From IMG/VR virus record IMGVR_UViG_3300050139_000003, positions 1 to 34,435 of that record: DNA of 34,435 nucleotides; one strand, written 5' to 3'. Shown here piece after piece: positions 869 through 33,812 of the stretch (position 1 is its first letter; the number at the start of each line of letters is the position of its first letter). The notes under the pieces are model-generated. The model did no database searches, had not been told where the DNA came from, and saw only the letters and a program-made list of their open reading frames with translations. Position numbers and translations under genes: made by a program. The DNA comes from a virus.

Positions 869-1791
869 TGTTAGATGAGAATATTATTGAGGGCTTCGTT
901 GCAAGTCTTCTCCTTGGCAAGTTCGATGGTGCTACTACAATACCAAAAGTACACAAGGAGTGGTGGAAACTCTGCACTTCTGAGGATAAACTTATTGCCA
1001 TAGCTGCTCCGCGAGGTCATGCCAAAAGCACAGCGATTACCCTTTCTTTCTTACTCGCGTCCGTCTTATTTAAGCAATCTAAATTTGTAATTTTAGTATC
1101 CGATACTGAAACACAAGCATCCCTCTTCCTGGGGGATATAACATCTGAACTTTCTGAGAACGAAGATTTAAAGTCTTTGTTTGGTCTTAAGAAGTTTCTT
1201 AAACTATCTGCTACAGACATCATTGTAGAGATGGAAGATGGAAGTAGATTTCGTATTATCGCTAAGGGTGCAGAACAAAAACTACGTGGCCTTAAGTGGG
1301 GTAATAAACGCCCTGATTTAATCATCTGTCATAAAGAGGACACAGATATTTACACGCCGGAAACTGGCTGGATAAAGAATCAAGATTACCCAAATGCAAA
1401 AATTGTATCTAGTGAAGTTTATGAAGTAGAGTTTGAAGATGGTATCAAAGAGATAGTTAGCTCAGACCATAGATATTTTATAGAGGGGTATGGATGGAAG
1501 TTTCCTTGGCAGATGAAATCAAACGAGAACGTCATAGAGAATCTAACAGACGATATAATGAACTCCATCCTGAGCGCAGAAAAGAACAAAACAAAGCATA
1601 CAACGCAAATCCAAAAACTAAAGAACGGTTTCAAAAGTGGGTTGCAAATAATCTTGATGCTTATAATAATTCAAGGGCGCAATGGTCGAAAGATAATCCC
1701 GCAAAGGTTAAAGCAAATACTGAGAAATACCGTAGGGAACATCCTGGCTGGATGGCTGCTCAATGTGCAAAACGTAGGGCAAAGAAGTTGA
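868..1791 (+). CDS. terL: Terminase large subunit, N-terminal ATPase half fused to intein N-half
   Basis: Residues 1-153 are the start of the packaging motor ATPase. APRGHAKST at about 47-55 is the Walker A loop and RPDLII at 148-153 leads into Walker B. At Cys154 (codon at 1327) the reading changes to an intein start: C-H-K-E-D-T-D-I-Y-T-P-E-T-G fits intein block A, and I-V-S-S-D-H-R-Y-F-I followed by G-Y-G-W at about 198-210 fits block B. Beyond codon 1495 the frame becomes low-quality sequence to a TGA at 1789. Here the HNH ORF in another frame takes over. The rest of TerL resumes in this same frame at 2101. Full TerL needs protein splicing and removal of the frame breaks, or trans-splicing. 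Confidence 0.85.
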   Translation: MLDENIIEGFVASLLLGKFDGATTIPKVHKEWWKLCTSEDKLIAIAAPRGHAKSTAITLSFLLASVLFKQSKFVILVSDTETQASLFLGDITSELSENEDLKSLFGLKKFLKLSATDIIVEMEDGSRFRIIAKGAEQKLRGLKWGNKRPDLIICHKEDTDIYTPETGWIKNQDYPNAKIVSSEVYEVEFEDGIKEIVSSDHRYFIEGYGWKFPWQMKSNENVIENLTDDIMNSILSAEKNKTKHTTQIQKLKNGFKSGLQIILMLIIIQGRNGRKIIPQRLKQILRNTVGNILAGWLLNVQNVGQRS

Positions 1792-2009
1792 GTGCTACTC
1801 CTAAGTGGGTAGACAAAGAAGAACTCTTTCTTATAGAAGAAGCATACTACTTAGCTAGAATTAGAACTGATCTTTTTGGTTTTCCTTGGGATGTGGATCA
1901 CATCATTCCTTTACAGGGAAAGACTGTTTGTGGTTTGCATACCCTTGCTAATCTACAGGTAATACCAAGTTCTTCCAATTATAGTAAAGGAAACAGCTTT
2001 GAGGGTTAA
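1494..2009 (+). CDS. HNH homing endonuclease inside the terL intein, in a different frame
   Basis: 171 residues. Inferred role: cuts an intein-less terL allele to spread the element. The N-terminal half has charged tandem units of the R-R-Y-N-E-L-H-P-E-R-R type seen in many phage HNH enzymes. The C-terminal half has the HNH core D-V-D-H-I-I-P-L, then L-A-N-L-Q-V-I-P and a final N-Y-S-K-G-N-S-F. Its ATG at 1494 follows GAGGGG (1483-1488) at a good distance, so it may be translated on its own. It ends TAA at 2007-2009, where the intein C-half starts in the TerL frame. Alternatively, it was once fused in frame and two shifts of opposite sign broke it out; G-Y-G-W joined to E-V-S-L-A-D-E-I would read well. 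Confidence 0.85.
   Translation: MEVSLADEIKRERHRESNRRYNELHPERRKEQNKAYNANPKTKERFQKWVANNLDAYNNSRAQWSKDNPAKVKANTEKYRREHPGWMAAQCAKRRAKKLSATPKWVDKEELFLIEEAYYLARIRTDLFGFPWDVDHIIPLQGKTVCGLHTLANLQVIPSSSNYSKGNSFEG
1986..2001 (+). promoter_or_regulatory. Possible ribosome-binding site and TTG start for the intein C-half
   Basis: AAAGGAAA at 1986-1993 is followed seven bases after GGA by TTG at 1999-2001, which is in the TerL frame. The frame is open from the stop at 1960-1962 to the amber at 2113. This could start a separately translated intein C-half, as expected for a split intein. It also lies inside the HNH coding sequence, so it may be coincidence. Confidence 0.3.
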
Positions 2010-2112
2010 GTCTGTTACTCGCCTTGAGGAGGGGGCAAATGTCGTCACTGTTAGAACGCAAGGCGGATGGTATAAAACCAAAGCCGGAATGTCCCACAAC
2101 TGTGACGACCTT

Positions 2113-2115: not shown

Positions 2116-2241
2116 CTGGAGAATGAAGAGGCTGTTGCTAGTTCGGAAAGACGCGAGAAATTCCGTAGATGGTTTAATGCTGCTCTTGTTCCTGCTTTAG
2201 CACAACATGGCAGACTCATCATAGTCGGTACTATTCTTCAC

Positions 2242-3135
2242 ATGGATAGTTGGCTTGAAAGGTTAATGCCAGATACAGCGGCTAAGACCACTGTTGAGGA
2301 GGGGTTAAAACTCTACTCTATAAAGAAGTCAATGTGGAGAGCAGTTAAGTATCGTGCGCATAACCAGGACTTCAGCCAGATACTCTGGGCAGAGAGATTC
2401 TCAAGAGAGTCTTTACAAGTAAAACGGCAATGGTATATAGACCAGGGATTACCAGATGTATATTCCCAAGAGTACCTTAATTATCCAATAGATGAAAGTT
2501 CAGCTTACTTTAAACGGGATGACTTCTTACCTTTTACTCTAGATGACTACGAAGAGAAACTTAACTATTATTCAGCGGTTGATTTCGCTATATCTACAAG
2601 AGAAGGTTCTGATTTCACTGTTATTGCTACCACTGGTGTTGCCTCTAGTGGTGATCTACTTGTTGTAGACATTCGTAGAGGAAGATGGGATTCTGCTGAA
2701 ATTATAGAGCAGATGTTTACAGTTCATACTAAGTATAAACCTGAGTTGTTTATTGTGGAACAAGGGGCTATTCAGAAGAGTATAGGACCATTCCTACAGA
2801 AAGAGATGATGCAGAGGGGAAAGTTTATTAACTTATATCCTCTTGTTCCTACCAAAGACAAACAATCACGAGCAAGATCATTGCAGGCCCGTATGCGAGC
2901 AGGGGGAATACGTTATGATAAAGATAAACTATGGTATCCTATACTTGAAGACGAAATGGCAAGATTTCCTAAAGACCGCCATGATGACCAAGTTGATGCA
3001 CTTTCTTGGATTGGATTAACTCTAGATAAGTTTATAGAAGCCTCAACTCCACAAGAAGATGCAGATGAGGAGTATAACAACATGATTAACGACTCAACTG
3101 AACAACAAGGCCGAAGCCGGTATACAGGATACTAA
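2242..3135 (+). CDS. terL: Terminase large subunit, C-terminal nuclease half
   Basis: The terminase frame is open from 2116; 2242 is the first ATG after the amber codon. Conserved sequence already starts upstream at the splice junction (2101), including E-R-R-E-K-F-R-R-W-F and the motor motif G-R-L-I-I-V-G-T-I-L-H, so a product from 2242 alone would lack part of the ATPase. From 2242 the RNase H-like nuclease is intact: Asp114 in Y-Y-S-A-V-D-F-A, Glu173 in L-F-I-V-E-Q, and the acidic group R-H-D-D-Q-V-D-A-L at about 246-254. This domain cuts concatemeric DNA at the start and end of packaging. Joined to the N half the enzyme would be about 500 residues, normal for TerL. Portal follows three bases later. 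Confidence 0.85.
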   Translation: MDSWLERLMPDTAAKTTVEEGLKLYSIKKSMWRAVKYRAHNQDFSQILWAERFSRESLQVKRQWYIDQGLPDVYSQEYLNYPIDESSAYFKRDDFLPFTLDDYEEKLNYYSAVDFAISTREGSDFTVIATTGVASSGDLLVVDIRRGRWDSAEIIEQMFTVHTKYKPELFIVEQGAIQKSIGPFLQKEMMQRGKFINLYPLVPTKDKQSRARSLQARMRAGGIRYDKDKLWYPILEDEMARFPKDRHDDQVDALSWIGLTLDKFIEASTPQEDADEEYNNMINDSTEQQGRSRYTGY

Positions 3136-24578: not shown

Positions 24579-24914
24579 TTAATATCCTAAATAATATAAC
24601 ATTGATTTTGGAACTTCTTTATCTAATTTTTTAAGTCTTACAAAAACTGCTTCGGGGGAAATCTTTTTCCTTATTAGCCACCCATAGAGAGGACTGCCTG
24701 ATTTTGATTGATTACAGTTCCTACATACTGGGAGAATATTATTTCTGCTACTATTTCCAACTCCGGCAATAGGTTCTATATGATCCAACTCTACCTCTAA
24801 GTAAAAAAAGGTACTCTCACAGTAAGGACAGTCTAACCAAAGTTCCCCAGAATCTACACATTCTTTATAGAAATGCTCTTTTCTATAGGATTGATAGTTT
24901 CTCCACTTTCTCAT
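24579..24914 (-). CDS. Free-standing HNH endonuclease
   Basis: 111 residues. The core has C-P-Y-C-E-S, then L-E-V-E-L-D-H-I-E-P-I-A-G, then N-I-L-P-V-C-R-N-C-N-Q-S-K-S. Four cysteines bind zinc; the D-H pair and the late Asn belong to the catalytic beta-beta-alpha site. The C-terminus carries a helical part (P-E-A-V-F-V-R-L-K-K-L). Such genes usually spread as homing elements. It sits near the end of the leftward arm, between small unknown genes. AGAGG is found upstream of the start. Confidence 0.85.
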   Translation of the reverse strand: MRKWRNYQSYRKEHFYKECVDSGELWLDCPYCESTFFYLEVELDHIEPIAGVGNSSRNNILPVCRNCNQSKSGSPLYGWLIRKKISPEAVFVRLKKLDKEVPKSMLYYLGY

Positions 24915-26648: not shown

Positions 26649-27113
26649 TTAACCATTTTGTTTTATAAACTCCTCATATACTTTGTGGGCAAGTTCTGGG
26701 GAGAGGTGCGAACCAAGATCATATTTCTTACAATCTATATTACACTGTACCCTCCACTTATTGCCATGTTTAGTAACTCCAGGATAACCAGATGCCCCGG
26801 AAACTCTTGTAACATTCCTACAATTCTCTGAGTTTGTTGCCTCTCTTAAATTATTTATTCTATTATCTATTTTGATTCTGTTCTTGTGGTCTAGCCTACT
26901 TTGTGGTAAACTTCCATACATATATAACCAAGCTAATCTGTGTGCTTTATATTTTTTGTATTCTATAACTATGTTTAGATAACCTCTACCATCTATAGAA
27001 CCTGCTGTATCTCCTACCTTGACTCTGCGGGCAGGAGAAGTCTTCCTGGTAAATATGCCAGTGTCAGGATTATAGATTAGTAGTTCTTTTAATATCTCTT
27101 GGGTAAGAGACAT
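26649..27113 (-). CDS. HNH endonuclease with AP2-like DNA-binding domain
   Basis: 154 residues. It begins L-L-I-Y-N-P-D-T-G-I-F-T-R-K, then K-V-G-D-T-A-G-S-I-D-G-R-G-Y, the HNH core A-H-R-L-A-W-L-Y-M-Y-G and L-D-H-K-N-R-I-K-I-D-N-R-I-N-N-L-R-E-A-T, and ends with an AP2-like G-Y-P-G-V-T-K-H-G-N-K-W-R-V. This is the standard layout of free-standing phage homing endonucleases. The start overlaps the stop of the exonuclease gene (TAATG). It lies between that gene and the spanins. Confidence 0.9.
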   Translation of the reverse strand: MSLTQEILKELLIYNPDTGIFTRKTSPARRVKVGDTAGSIDGRGYLNIVIEYKKYKAHRLAWLYMYGSLPQSRLDHKNRIKIDNRINNLREATNSENCRNVTRVSGASGYPGVTKHGNKWRVQCNIDCKKYDLGSHLSPELAHKVYEEFIKQNG

Positions 27114-27920: not shown

Positions 27921-28136
27921 TTATCCTCTATGGAAGATTTCTTCAGGTAATGTTTCTAGTATGTGTTTATACATCTCCTCATTAGTTGCAGGAATGTTTA
28001 CCGCGTCGCTACTATTACTAAGACTAATAAGATAATTAAGACCAACATTTATTAGATATCCTACCTCTTGTGGGGTTAATTTTAAAGCTACTTCTGCCGA
28101 GTTATCATCGTGCTCTTTGATGTAGGTTACAATCAT
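27921..28136 (-). CDS. 71-residue hypothetical protein
   Basis: Starts in a TAATG overlap with the upstream HNH gene. A short beta start (I-V-T-Y-I-K-E-H) is followed by L-T-P-Q-E-V-G-Y-L-I-N-V-G-L-N-Y-L, a helical middle, and an acidic C-terminal helix. No family recognised. The 64 bases to the exonuclease gene hold an A/T-rich leader and no further gene. Confidence 0.5.
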   Translation of the reverse strand: MIVTYIKEHDDNSAEVALKLTPQEVGYLINVGLNYLISLSNSSDAVNIPATNEEMYKHILETLPEEIFHRG

Positions 28137-28549
28137 TATTTTTGTTTTCCTTTTTGTGGTTTCTGCATAAGTGTCTCACCTTTTTGCATCTTATGTAATT
28201 TAGCAGTAAGTCTTTCACCTTTAGTTTTCTTTAAGTGGCAATCTACGCAAAGCACTTGGAGATTTTCTTTAGGACAAAATAATCTATTAATAAACTCATC
28301 CCAAGATACAAACCCAATTAAAGGGTCCACGACGGCTAATATGTGATCTACTTGTACATTGGTCTGAACAAACTCATTATGACAAAGAGCACATTCGTAG
28401 TGCATTGCTTCTCTACCACTTTTAGGATTTAATTTCTTACCTCTTCGAGCATCTTTAAGTACTTCATACTTGATTGGATAACGCCTGAATCCCGACCTGA
28501 TTGTTGATGTTATGAAGCTCTTTAAACGGCCATCACTCCAACTTTTCAT
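28136..28549 (-). CDS. HNH endonuclease, zinc-finger type
   Basis: 137 residues. The motif order is C-A-L-C-H-N-E-F, then V-Q-V-D-H-I-L-A-V-V-D-P-L-I-G-F, then S-W-D-E-F-I, F-C-P-K-E-N-L-Q-V-L-C-V-D-C-H-L-K-K-T. This pattern is common in phages, where such HNH proteins appear as free-standing genes in replication or packaging regions. The basic N-terminus (G-R-L-K-S-F-I-T-S-T-I-R) may help bind DNA. The start overlaps the stop of another HNH gene (ATGA). Confidence 0.85.
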   Translation of the reverse strand: MKSWSDGRLKSFITSTIRSGFRRYPIKYEVLKDARRGKKLNPKSGREAMHYECALCHNEFVQTNVQVDHILAVVDPLIGFVSWDEFINRLFCPKENLQVLCVDCHLKKTKGERLTAKLHKMQKGETLMQKPQKGKQK

Positions 28550-29091
28550 ACCACTCTCTTATGTAGAGCTATTTTATTTAGCCACTCCATAAAAGCCTCA
28601 AATGGTAGAGTTCCTTTTGCATGATTACATGAAAAACAGCAGGGGAGGCAGTTGTCTGAATCGTAACCGAACGCATTTATTTTTCTGTCTATTCCATTAT
28701 AAATATACTCACCATAGTAATCTTTAGCGGTAAAAACTCTTTGAGGGGGGGAACCACAATAATAGCAGTCTTGCTTTGTTAAGGCCCTAAATTCATCCTT
28801 AGATAACCAAAAGTATAGGCCCCTATTTGAAGCTCCTCTTTTATATCTATCAAAGATAAAATTGAAACTAGACTCTCCAAAAGGGAGTTTAGAGAGACAG
28901 CCACAAGACTTCTTCCCACCACTCTTCAAAGACCCCTGTCTAGCTACGATAGTATTACCACAATCACAAAGACATTCCCACATAACATTATAGTTTTTTC
29001 TTTCCTTTGTGGGGCTAAGAGCAATTAACTTTCCAAAGCGTTGCCCACTAATGTCTTTAATCTTTCTACTTCTGGTCTTTTCGAGAACCAT
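28546..29091 (-). CDS. HNH homing endonuclease with zinc-finger N-domain
   Basis: 181 residues from ATG 29091, preceded by a strong AGGAAGGAG; an in-frame start further upstream at 29136 is less likely. The N-terminal domain I-S-G-Q-R-F-G-K-L-I-A-L ... W-E-C-L-C-D-C-G, then K-S-C-G-C-L, is the usual small DNA-binding finger of phage homing enzymes. The C-terminal part has C-Y-Y-C-G-S and C-C-F-S-C-N-H-A-K-G-T. Its start lies 67 bases inside the end of the 5'-3' exonuclease gene, so it entered next to or in that gene. Confidence 0.85.
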   Translation of the reverse strand: MVLEKTRSRKIKDISGQRFGKLIALSPTKERKNYNVMWECLCDCGNTIVARQGSLKSGGKKSCGCLSKLPFGESSFNFIFDRYKRGASNRGLYFWLSKDEFRALTKQDCYYCGSPPQRVFTAKDYYGEYIYNGIDRKINAFGYDSDNCLPCCFSCNHAKGTLPFEAFMEWLNKIALHKRVV

Positions 29092-29741
29092 TCTCCTTCC
29101 TCTCTTAACATCCAAAAACAATCTGCATTTACCCAAAATCTAGTTGGATCGTTATATTTTTCATATACAAGTAAGAACATATCTTCCTCAGTTTCTATAC
29201 CAGAGAGGAGTTTCTCTGCTCCCACCTTTCCTATCTTATCTACACCTCTAAGATTGTCCGCTCGATCACCAACTAACATTTGAAAATAAAAATATTTTAC
29301 TATTTGTTCTTTATCAGTATAAAATAATATATCCTTAACAAAGTCATACTTAAAACCTTCTACTTGATATAGTATATCCTTGTCAATAGTGCATCCGATA
29401 GTAGTATCTGGATTTTTAGTTTGCTCTATACTTATTAAATCATCTGCCTCTACTCCTACTGCTACCTTGGCATCCCAAGACTTAATTAAAAAATCCTTTA
29501 AGAATGTGTAATGTATAGGTTTTTCCTGGGTGCGATGAGCTTTATACTCAGGATTAAGGATAGCTCGAAAGCTTTCCGTTCTTGGACAGGACAAATAAAG
29601 GTTATATGCAGTGGCTTGTACTGTACCTAAGATACGCTCTATAAGTTCATTTATACGCCACTCTGCAATAGCCTCTGTCTCTGTGTTAGTTGTATATCCC
29701 ACTCTATAAAGAAGTAGGTCCGCATCCAGTAAGGCCCTCAT
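29025..29741 (-). CDS. 5'-3' exonuclease (T7 gp6/flap-endonuclease-like)
   Basis: 238 residues from ATG 29741, where R-A-L-L-D-A-D begins; the longer in-frame reading to 29789 adds residues that do not fit the family and is used by a small membrane peptide in another frame. Metal-binding motifs appear in order: L-L-D-A-D, G-V-E-A-D-D-L-I-S, T-I-D-K-D, and G-D-R-A-D-N-L-R-G-V-D-K-I-G (helix-three-turn-helix). It removes RNA primers and degrades host DNA in T7-like phages. The gene start overlaps the stop of the 25-residue gene. Confidence 0.85.
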   Translation of the reverse strand: MRALLDADLLLYRVGYTTNTETEAIAEWRINELIERILGTVQATAYNLYLSCPRTESFRAILNPEYKAHRTQEKPIHYTFLKDFLIKSWDAKVAVGVEADDLISIEQTKNPDTTIGCTIDKDILYQVEGFKYDFVKDILFYTDKEQIVKYFYFQMLVGDRADNLRGVDKIGKVGAEKLLSGIETEEDMFLLVYEKYNDPTRFWVNADCFWMLREEGEWFSKRPEVERLKTLVGNALES

Positions 29742-31562: not shown

Positions 31563-31594
31563 ATTATACTACCATACTTCTACTTCTTTGTCAA
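31563..31594 (-). promoter_or_regulatory. Sigma-70-type promoter for the SSB-like gene
   Basis: On the minus strand a perfect TTGACA (31594-31589) is followed after 17 bases by TAGTAT (31571-31566); a better TATAAT (31568-31563) overlaps this at a spacing of 20. The -35 box overlaps the polymerase C-half TGA. It is the clearest promoter in the window and would drive the genes from SSB leftward using host RNA polymerase. Confidence 0.6.
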
Positions 31595-32313
31595 GCATTA
31601 TTTGAAATTAGTTCCATATCTTTCCAATTCATTCCTTTATCTATTGTACATACAATAGGAAGATTGAACTCTACCCCAAAAAGTTTGTGGAAGTTTCCTG
31701 GTAAGTCTTTGAAGGTTTGGTGCAACACAGAACACAAGAGTTCTATATTGTTTTCTGCCGTGTCAATTACTATACTATCGTGTACTGTGTTTACTAATTT
31801 ATAATCTTTTAAATCTAATTTCTTTAATTTATTGAAAAAGCTAACTCTTGCTAAGGCCATGAGGTCAGCGCCCCCTGACTGAACAGGGTAGTTCTTAATC
31901 AAAGTTATTGGGTATACTAATTCTCCTCCTTTTAAAATAGGTTCAAAATCAAATATTCTTCCTGTAGGCATTACAAGTTTTCCAGTTGCTATAACATCTT
32001 GTACTATTTTAATGTGCCACTGTCTGAGACCCTCATACTTTTCGTAGAATGTGTCTATGATGACCTGCCATCGTTTCTCATTTAATCTGCACTCGGCAAA
32101 GTTTGCATCGTGAGCAAAGCTGTAGGCTCCTCCTCCATATAAAGTTCTAAAGACAAAGACTTTTGCTACAAGTCTAGAAGGTAGTTTTAACATCTTCATA
32201 TTATCAGCATGCATGTCTGCACCTGAAATGATTTCGGCCATCATTATTTTATCTTGACTTAAGTAGGCGGCTACTACTACTTCTAAAGCTTTTGCATCTC
32301 CTTGAAGGAGCAT
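31591..32313 (-). CDS. DNA polymerase family A, C-terminal half (palm and fingers)
   Basis: 240 residues. Begins M-L-L-Q-G-D-A-K-A-L-E with the motif A aspartate at residue 6. Motif B follows (R47, K51, L-Y-G at 58-60 in A-K-V-F-V-F-R-T-L-Y-G), and motif C is V-H-D-S-I with Asp179. Together with the N half it makes a complete polymerase; alone it lacks the thumb and exonuclease. It starts with an ATG overlapping the TAA of the 110-residue ORF. The sequence runs on directly from the N half if that ORF is ignored, so the gene was once whole. Confidence 0.9.
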   Translation of the reverse strand: MLLQGDAKALEVVVAAYLSQDKIMMAEIISGADMHADNMKMLKLPSRLVAKVFVFRTLYGGGAYSFAHDANFAECRLNEKRWQVIIDTFYEKYEGLRQWHIKIVQDVIATGKLVMPTGRIFDFEPILKGGELVYPITLIKNYPVQSGGADLMALARVSFFNKLKKLDLKDYKLVNTVHDSIVIDTAENNIELLCSVLHQTFKDLPGNFHKLFGVEFNLPIVCTIDKGMNWKDMELISNNA

Positions 32314-32645
32314 TACCTATTACCATTAGCAAGAGCAATAAAACTATTTTCTATGTCGTCTTGATGTTTCTTATTAAGTTTTAAGAATACATATAAAGCG
32401 CCATATTCATCCATTTGTCTATTGATAACCCCTATAGTAAAGTCAAATCCTGCCTGTTCATTCATGGCATCTACTTGCTCACTATAATCTATGATAGTAG
32501 TACCACCAATGTTTTTACAATAGACATCACTTGCTAGATGTCCTTCTACTACATCATATTGATTTATGTTTTTCATATTAATCCCTAATATAGTAGTATG
32601 GTCTGTTCTTTTTACATCTTGGAAATTAAATTCCTCTTGTTCCAT
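32313..32645 (-). CDS. 110-residue unknown protein inserted in the polymerase gene
   Basis: It lies exactly between the two polymerase halves, with AGGAG (overlapping the N-half TAG) before its ATG and a TAATG overlap with the C half at its end. It reads N-F-Q-D-V-K-R-T-D-H-T-T-I-L-G-I, then Y-D-V-V-E-G-H-L-A-S-D-V-Y, then F-D-F-T-I-G-V-I-N-R-Q-M-D-E-Y-G-A-L-Y-V-F. No HNH, GIY-YIG, LAGLIDADG or intein motif can be seen, so it is not an obvious homing gene. It could be a bridging subunit, a passenger or the remains of a mobile element. Confidence 0.75.
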   Translation of the reverse strand: MEQEEFNFQDVKRTDHTTILGINMKNINQYDVVEGHLASDVYCKNIGGTTIIDYSEQVDAMNEQAGFDFTIGVINRQMDEYGALYVFLKLNKKHQDDIENSFIALANGNR

Positions 32646-32654
32646 TCTTTTCTC

Positions 32655-33812
32655 CTAATATCTAGAGTAAAACAAATCTTTAATATTTCCATCGAGATTT
32701 TGCAAATTCGGGCGAGATGACGATAGGCGTCCGGTTCTGGCTATGCATTGATTAAACTGTCCGTGTAACTCATTCTTAGGCCAATCCAATTCCATCCTAA
32801 GTTTTGGGATACCTTTGTAATAAGTTCCCACTCTCTTTTCTATTGTACTCCTTTCTAACAAAATGTCAAGAACTTTCTTCGCTTCTTTACTTCCTTTTAA
32901 ACTCTTAAGGGTTTGTTCGTCTGTTGAGAAGTATCCCTCTTTCTTTAATTCACTTCCTTTTGGTGGTGTAAAGAGGCGTGGTAGCGGGTATTCCCGCGTT
33001 TTCCATCCTAACTTCTCTTGACCTTCCCTCTCTCCTGTTTTGTACACTCCGATAACTTCCTGATAAGGGATAGTAATTGTTCCACCATAAAGCATACAAC
33101 TAAGCTGGTCGCCACTATCAAAGTTAATACCATCAATAGGGAACATACTAAGAAGGTCTTTATCATAACCATCAAGAATAAGCTGGTCTTCTTCTGCCAA
33201 CTTAGCACATTTGTCTTCGTTGAATAGTAATCCATTATACTCCATTTCCTCTAATACTAATAAATCTTGGTTATGTAAACTAATAAGTTTACGTCTAGCA
33301 ACAGGTAACTGTTGCACTTCCTCTACTTGTTTTAAATAAACCTGATAAGTTAAGTGTAGGTCTTGTTCTAAGTATTTCTCTAGGATATCTCTAGGAACAT
33401 CTGGAGTATCTATCCCCCGCGACCAATACTCCTCTTCTACTACATCTAATTTCTTTCCAAGGTTATAATATTCTGCTACTTGGTTTAGTGATGGGAAAGT
33501 ATCTTTCTGATTAGATAAGATGAAGTGCACTAACTGGCAGTCGTGAATCCTGCAATGACTAAAATTTATTCCGTAACGTCGAATCCAATGCAGGTCGAAT
33601 TTTGCATTAAAAAGAATTAACAGATTACAATTATTAATTAACTCCTGTATCTTCTTTAGTCCCTCTCCATAAGGAGTTCCATCATATTCTATTGATATAA
33701 GATAATTAGTTTCTCCGTCATAAAGACCAACATAACAAAGTTTATTCATTTCTGAAAATGGGTTTCCGTGGGCAAATATGCTGGTCTCAACATCTAAGAC
33801 GAGAGGAATCAT
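32655..33812 (-). CDS. DNA polymerase family A, N-terminal half (3'-5' exonuclease and thumb)
   Basis: 385 residues. Proofreading motifs are intact: D-V-E-T at 7-10 (Exo I), F-N-A-K-F-D at 68-73 (Exo II) and Y-L-E-Q-D-L-H-L-T-Y at 147-156 (Exo III). The end has the family A T-G-R-L-S-S-S-R-P-N-L-Q-N segment and stops at L-F-Y-S-R-Y, a few residues before the catalytic motif A aspartate. The remainder is in the separate downstream gene. The combined length (625) suits a small T7-like replicative polymerase. The start overlaps the end of the previous gene. Confidence 0.9.
   Translation of the reverse strand: MIPLVLDVETSIFAHGNPFSEMNKLCYVGLYDGETNYLISIEYDGTPYGEGLKKIQELINNCNLLILFNAKFDLHWIRRYGINFSHCRIHDCQLVHFILSNQKDTFPSLNQVAEYYNLGKKLDVVEEEYWSRGIDTPDVPRDILEKYLEQDLHLTYQVYLKQVEEVQQLPVARRKLISLHNQDLLVLEEMEYNGLLFNEDKCAKLAEEDQLILDGYDKDLLSMFPIDGINFDSGDQLSCMLYGGTITIPYQEVIGVYKTGEREGQEKLGWKTREYPLPRLFTPPKGSELKKEGYFSTDEQTLKSLKGSKEAKKVLDILLERSTIEKRVGTYYKGIPKLRMELDWPKNELHGQFNQCIARTGRLSSSRPNLQNLDGNIKDLFYSRY

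Follow-up and report, generated by a model that had tools for sequence, protein, structure and literature searches.

How is the large terminase subunit (TerL) made from a gene whose reading frame is closed by several stops, reopens, and then meets a further stop directly after the Walker B motif? The question is raised by virus record IMGVR_UViG_3300050139_000003, which was analysed over its whole length of 34,435 bases (the window) and in which the TerL gene (terL) is interrupted directly before the conserved Cys of Walker B. Comparison with related contigs suggests that the interruption is probably a mobile homing element of phage terL: a split mini-intein (with halves intein-N and intein-C) and, nested out of frame so that it overlaps both halves, a complete gene for an HNH endonuclease. 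The layout, its conservation and the complete set of splicing residues are evident at the level of sequence. A search for homologues with the same arrangement of frames, which a first-pass annotation of the window had proposed, found it in L246 (3300017780_000924), L256 (3300032156_000243), L258 (3300050195_000006) and L260/L261 (two contigs of 3300035661); because it recurs in these separate metagenomes, the layout is more than chance. The same annotation had suggested that the terminase is possibly fractured, by a split intein, and that the HNH overlaps the intein and has a start of its own; conservation of the layout in other lineages now strongly supports that description.

Layout of the interrupted terminase gene

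The mini-intein occupies window positions 1327-2100, between RPDLII and CDDL, and the Walker B Cys that adjoins it is the +1 residue of the intein. The parts of the locus are as follows.

868-1326, + strand: N-terminal extein of TerL (TerL-N), from Walker A to the Walker B strand, ending RPDLII; aligns with the uninterrupted TerL of L088, L003, L002 and L138 and matches PHROG 38, terminase large subunit.
1327-1542, + strand: intein-N, 72 amino acids, with Cys1 and a block-B-like SSDHRYF, in the TerL frame, its final 48 or so nucleotides overlapping the HNH gene; homologous halves lie at the same site in L246, L256, L258 and L260.
1543-1791, + strand: continuation of the TerL frame past intein-N, overlapping the HNH gene, to TGA at 1789-1791; an open frame, with lower HNH synonymous change in the overlap in close pairs.
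1483-1488, + strand: GAGGGG, possible ribosome-binding site of the HNH gene; AAAGGA or GAAGGA stands at a similar distance in L246 and L256, and L258 has none as clear.
1494-2009, + strand: complete HNH endonuclease gene, 171 amino acids, one base out of frame with TerL; has phage HNH relatives, matches the endonuclease VII PHROG and is in the same frame in L246, L256, L258 and L260.
1986-1993, + strand: AAAGGAAA, possible ribosome-binding site of intein-C, also encoding HNH residues KGN; resembles the AAAGGA pattern upstream of other window genes.
1999-2100, + strand: intein-C, with a TTG start (1999-2001) and the end SHN; all members have an NTG start at one homologous position.
2101-2112, + strand: C-extein of the intein-C open reading frame (ORF), CDDL, comprising the +1 Cys and the acidic pair of Walker B; all members and uninterrupted TerLs alike have CDD(L/M).
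2113-2118, + strand: stop-Leu hexamer TAGCTG; a stop directly follows CDD(L/M) in every member at the site, and the hexamer is absent from uninterrupted TerLs.
2116-3135, + strand: C-terminal extein of TerL (TerL-C; LENEE..., the remaining ATPase domain and the nuclease domain); 55-70% identical to relatives over its full length, and matched by terminase profiles.

Insert-free relatives read RPDL(I/V)(I/V)CDDLE(N/G)(D/E)E or near it, whereas the TerL frame of the window continues after RPDLII as CHKEDTDIYTPETGWIKNQDYPN...EIVSSDHRYFIEGYGWKFPWQMKSNENVIEN where CDDLENEE is expected. The ORF from 868 stays open to 1791; several stops follow, the frame reopens at 1963, and from the TTG at 1999 it reads MRVKSVTRLEEGANVVTVRTQGGWYKTKAGMSHN, then CDDL, TAG, LENEEAVASSERREKFRRWFN and the remainder of TerL. 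The HNH ORF lies between the intein halves and overlaps both; its frame precedes that of TerL by one base. The first-pass annotation had described the two intein ends as sharing the TerL frame and the HNH as lying one base earlier, which the sequence confirms, and its positions for GAGGGG, the HNH ATG, AAAGGAAA and the TTG are all correct; it did not mention that an in-frame TAG, followed by CTG, stands four codons into the C-extein (2113-2115).

Of 157 TerL loci screened (some contigs were fetched twice), 154 carry (C/G/V/F)DD(L/M/I/F) directly at the insertion point and have no element; the remainder includes L246, which has the intein, and L172, which aligns poorly. Neither the stop codon nor the Leu codon that follows CDD(L/M) in the window occurs in these approximately 154 uninterrupted relatives. 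Non-TerL DNA, possibly an intron and without an Rfam match, interrupts another TerL of this family at the contig end in L137 (L137:1-135), about 12 nucleotides upstream of the intein site.

Conservation in other lineages

In L246, L256, L258 and L260/L261, as in the window, intein-N is in the TerL frame, the HNH gene is in the -1 frame and intein-C is again in the TerL frame; the -1 position of the HNH holds in all five lineages. Relative to the window, intein-N is 56-61% identical (L246, L256, L258), intein-C 53-58% and HNH 45-50%. The HNH gene begins at an ATGG sharing its TGG with the codon of an intein Trp, and intein-C begins at one homologous position, with TTG in the window, L246 and L256 and with ATG in L258 and L260. 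Because a TAA stands immediately before this ATG in L260, intein-C must be a separate product there. Members do not vary at Cys1, the block-B His, the C-terminal HN or the +1 Cys, which are in frame with the exteins at a conserved site. Within intein-C, at window 2027-2041, the +1 frame holds a strong run resembling a ribosome-binding site, followed by ATG (GAGGAGGGGGCAAATG), which L246, L256 and L258 share and L260 and L265 lack.

Two further loci, L264 and L265, have the same stop after CDDL. L265 (L265:693-1202) contains a contiguous mini-intein with an out-of-frame remnant of the HNH C-terminus, most of the HNH having been lost, and its stop is TAA; this arrangement is likely an evolutionary step that follows loss of the nuclease. 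L246 came to light through alignment of TerL-N, and a scan of viral contigs for the pattern HNCDDx-stop-(C/T)TN-GAR returned only the six contigs already found. A single joined intein sequence used as a search query gave no match; no intein relatives were found in bacterial genomes, and among cultured phages no close relative of the element was found at the TerL Walker B site.

Identity of the intein and of the nested endonuclease

The intein halves lie on separate ORFs with starts of their own and with the HNH gene between them, as in a split intein. An intein-containing profile matches intein-N of L260 (E = 5e-10), and a structural model of L265, with a predicted local distance difference test score above 90 in its core, matches solved inteins with probability 1.00; the model represents this relative rather than the two halves in the window. 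The HNH motif VDHI-PLQGK...GLH..NLQV...N..K.N is conserved among relatives, and the protein matches the endonuclease VII PHROG (E = 1.7e-13); the Pfam HNH match is weak and occurs in HNH relatives, and a fold search of the HNH against PDB gave no match. Its relatives are mostly free-standing phage nucleases whose C-termini fall at one position, for example with SNSFEN or GNRFNG, and with GNSFEG in the window.

Over the first 18 or so HNH codons the TerL frame is still intein-like (W-E/Q-L/M, then N-E-N-V in most members); therefore, that stretch codes twice. The idea that adding one base would yield a natural intein reading GWKKVSLADEI was rejected, the TerL frame past GWK being conserved as intein.

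We infer from these features that the intein halves are active in splicing and that the HNH is an active nuclease. A single mRNA would yield TerL-N with intein-N, HNH from its own start, and intein-C ending in the C-extein residues CDD(L/M); trans-splicing by the intein halves would join CDD(L/M) onto TerL-N, and the HNH would cut uninterrupted terL at Walker B, allowing the element to spread. The remaining TerL would come from ribosomes that pass the conserved stop, by hopping or readthrough, or that restart at the next codon, and we choose neither. Of the three products envisaged by the first-pass annotation, a separate intein-C stands, given the TAA of L260, and "intein C with TerL-C" does not, given the conserved stop after CDD(L/M).

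Mobility and selection

Comparison of L246 with L256 indicates that the element has diverged less than the gene that carries it: synonymous divergence (dS) is 0.15 for intein-N, 0.13 for intein-C and 0.38 for HNH, versus 1.1-2.0 for the TerL exteins. Nucleotide identity is mostly 88-100% over the element and its close flanks and roughly 72-85% farther away, which is what homing with co-conversion predicts; low divergence of the element is accompanied by patchy occurrence, as expected of a homing element (154 of the 157 loci lack it). In this pair, every ORF that allows an estimate has a ratio of nonsynonymous to synonymous divergence below 1. HNH has fewer synonymous differences in its overlap with the TerL-frame ORF than outside, strongly so among L246, L256 and L258, weakly or not at all in more diverged pairs; dS is low too in intein-N outside the overlap and in most of intein-C. 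These patterns in the aligned sequences point firmly to horizontal spread of the element and to purifying selection upon it.

Several observations weigh against the proposed element. The intein halves of the window match intein profiles weakly. Double coding, and not only recent transfer, can lower dS in part of the HNH. The members are few (the window and seven contigs with the stop, from about five lineages) and all metagenomic. A fractured gene should still give a whole host protein; here the intein-C ORF stops after CDD(L/M), splicing of the three plain products would give no whole TerL chain, and only bypass of the stop would supply one.

The stop after Walker B

At the TerL Walker B site, CDD(L/M) is followed immediately by an in-frame stop in every member, and the next codon is Leu in all but L256. 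The codons around the stop are CTT TAG CTG in the window, ATG TAG CTG in L246 and L258, CTT TAG CTT in L260 and CTC TAA CTA in L265, such that the flanking codons match perfectly in L260 and at two of three bases in the others; L256 deviates, with ATG TAG and then TGG, one base having been lost and TerL-C lying in another frame. Both the stop and the Leu have persisted between diverged lineages despite synonymous change, and so seem to be selected. TerL-C shows conservation from LENEE onward, and its frame offers no ATG, GTG or TTG for 42 codons in the window and for 50 in L260. Since the conserved stop ends the intein-C ORF after CDD(L/M), TerL-C needs either bypass of the stop or independent initiation. 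Recoding of TAG to sense was rejected: TAG ends 7 of the 37 listed ORFs of the window, and no tRNA is present. No conserved RNA structure was found at the stop, where z-scores were inconsistent.

Bypass in frame, which would give full TerL by splicing of TerL-N to a continuous intein-C-TerL-C chain, has a little under an even chance in our estimation. Peptidyl-tRNA might leave the codon before the stop and land on the similar codon after it, which would restore the ancestral CDD(L/M)-ENEE in a product of native length, or the stop might be read through, adding two residues. Bypass accords with the retention in frame, through synonymous change, of a stop followed by CTN in the window, L246, L258, L260 and L265, with the identical flanking codons of L260, with the long stretches that lack ATG, GTG or TTG, and with the demonstration that stop hops function in synthetic constructs (PMC5009743). 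It fits poorly with L256, where the different frame of TerL-C could be rescued only by a hop of 5 nucleotides from ATG to GTG, with the poor codon match of ATG to CTG in L246 and L258, and with the lack of conserved RNA structure.

Alternatively, the stop would be a true end and TerL-C would restart at the next codon (CTG or GTG), making TerL a protein of two chains, spliced TerL-N-CDD(L/M) and TerL-C; we regard this as a tentative second possibility, well short of an even chance. The CTG that follows the stop in the window, L246 and L258 would serve as the start, and in L256 a GTG overlaps the stop (TAGTG) with TerL-C out of the intein-C frame; however, CTT in L260 and CTA in L265 are not known starts, L265 would fit only with a later start, L260 has no NTG for 50 codons, no ribosome-binding site is evident, and the chain would break beside the ATPase centre.

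According to a 2016 review, in-frame bypass works in synthetic constructs and no natural in-frame stop hop is known; the same review discusses the bypass of T4 gene 60 together with the neighbouring homing endonuclease (PMC5009743). The gene 60 bypass resembles the window in having a stop after the take-off codon, a similar codon downstream and an adjoining homing nuclease gene, but its gap is 50 nucleotides and it has known stimulators and experimental proof, whereas the window would have at most a putative hop over one stop (PMC5009743). It is conceivable, if unlikely, that the window holds a natural in-frame hop over a stop flanked by similar Leu/Met codons, restoring exact TerL, and that the 6-nucleotide insert is a minimal bypass cassette tied to the homing nuclease, perhaps shielding the carrier from its own nuclease as has been proposed for T4 gene 60.

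The first-pass annotation had offered a decaying or frameshifting intein as its alternative, and had also considered one-base errors. Frame breaks and a stop within an essential gene are what decay or misassembly without a functional split would produce, and the HNH of L265 is mostly lost; nevertheless, sharing of the layout by several lineages largely refutes this explanation, purifying selection acts on every ORF, and the conserved genes of the window all match in a single frame, with TerL alone interrupted (by comparison with MW202796 and with the relative containing L138), which leaves both decay and error unsupported and very improbable. Removal of the insert as RNA, as a group I or II intron with the HNH inside it, can be dismissed almost entirely: introns are known in phage terL (PMC10448857) and often house HNH genes, but the window and the region have no Rfam intron match, the gap is filled by the HNH, the intein residues are conserved, and the stop comes after the Walker B DD, hence no single excision would give native TerL.

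Relation to known systems

The split mini-intein with its nested HNH gene has an independent parallel in L272/L273, where a split intein lies in the nuclease domain of a different TerL and its halves pass the intein_Nterm and intein_Cterm cut-offs. A different HNH (HNH_3) is in the -1 frame, where, as in the window, the gene overlaps TGGAAG at its start and GTTAAG at its stop, and no stop follows CDDLRY; judged from these sequences, the parallel shows that the combination arose more than once. At the TerL site of the window itself, L266-L271 have ordinary in-frame LAGLIDADG inteins: like the window, they are inserted before the Walker B Cys, start with CH...T and end in SHN followed by CDD; unlike the window, they have one continuous frame, a LAGLIDADG nuclease and no stop after CDD.

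Among named cultured phages, Lactobacillus phage CL2 (KR905067; L281 506-2734), whose host is annotated, likewise has TerL with intein-N, an annotated HNH gene and then intein-C with a TerL tail, in an unannotated ORF; it differs in the TerL site, in an HNH that begins after the intein-N stop, and in the lack of a stop after the C-extein start. Brochothrix phage BL3 (L280 727-2607), also with a named host, has a TerL split by an intein with an HNH remnant.

Split inteins with a free-standing endonuclease between the halves of fractured genes are known (Dassa et al. 2009, as cited in PMC6892783 and PMC10448857), as the first-pass annotation had said; out-of-frame overlap of both halves by the endonuclease was not found described in the open literature searched. 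Fractured genes resemble the window in their phage-like DNA, in a host gene that a split intein divides and in a nuclease gene of its own placed between the two intein halves (PMC6892783). The split PolB intein of Pseudomonas phage MIJ3 likewise has an HNH gene between split halves in a phage gene, but the host gene is another, and the excerpts of that paper report neither out-of-frame overlap of both halves nor the stop-Leu signature (PMC6892783). The window differs from fractured genes in having as its nuclease an HNH that overlaps the two halves in another frame, and in a C-extein ORF that ends after four residues. The fractured-gene nuclease of Dassa et al. 2009 is reportedly of a different family from HNH.

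A 2025 paper describes out-of-frame HNH genes hidden in insertions within phage genes, and states explicitly that these lack a splicing domain (PMC11855218). The ShiLan domain of phage methylases is comparable to the window in its complete HNH in another frame, its insertion at a conserved site of the host gene and its homing-like spread (PMC11855218); its host frame is open and no splicing domain is present, whereas in the window intein halves are present and the TerL frame is closed by stops (1791).

Other features of the window

DNA polymerase A of the window (31591-33812, - strand) is encoded by two genes (31591-32313 and 32655-33812) with a 110-amino-acid ORF between them, and is likewise in two separate genes in MW202796. 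More HNH-like ORFs were recognized by eye on the - strand (24579-24914, 26649-27113, 28136-28549, 28546-29136); thus, the contig is rich in homing-type nucleases.

Significance

The window element combines a split-intein fractured gene with a hidden out-of-frame HNH and adds the stop-Leu signature, a combination that was not found described in the open literature searched, outside of which most subscription papers lie. Two rare arrangements are thereby united in one conserved, mobile element within an essential gene, and its very short intein halves may interest developers of protein-splicing tools. The conserved stop after Walker B poses a testable puzzle: either TerL is two chains broken beside the ATPase site, or the stop is one that ribosomes are meant to pass, and the latter, if true, would bear on the natural use of in-frame stop hopping.
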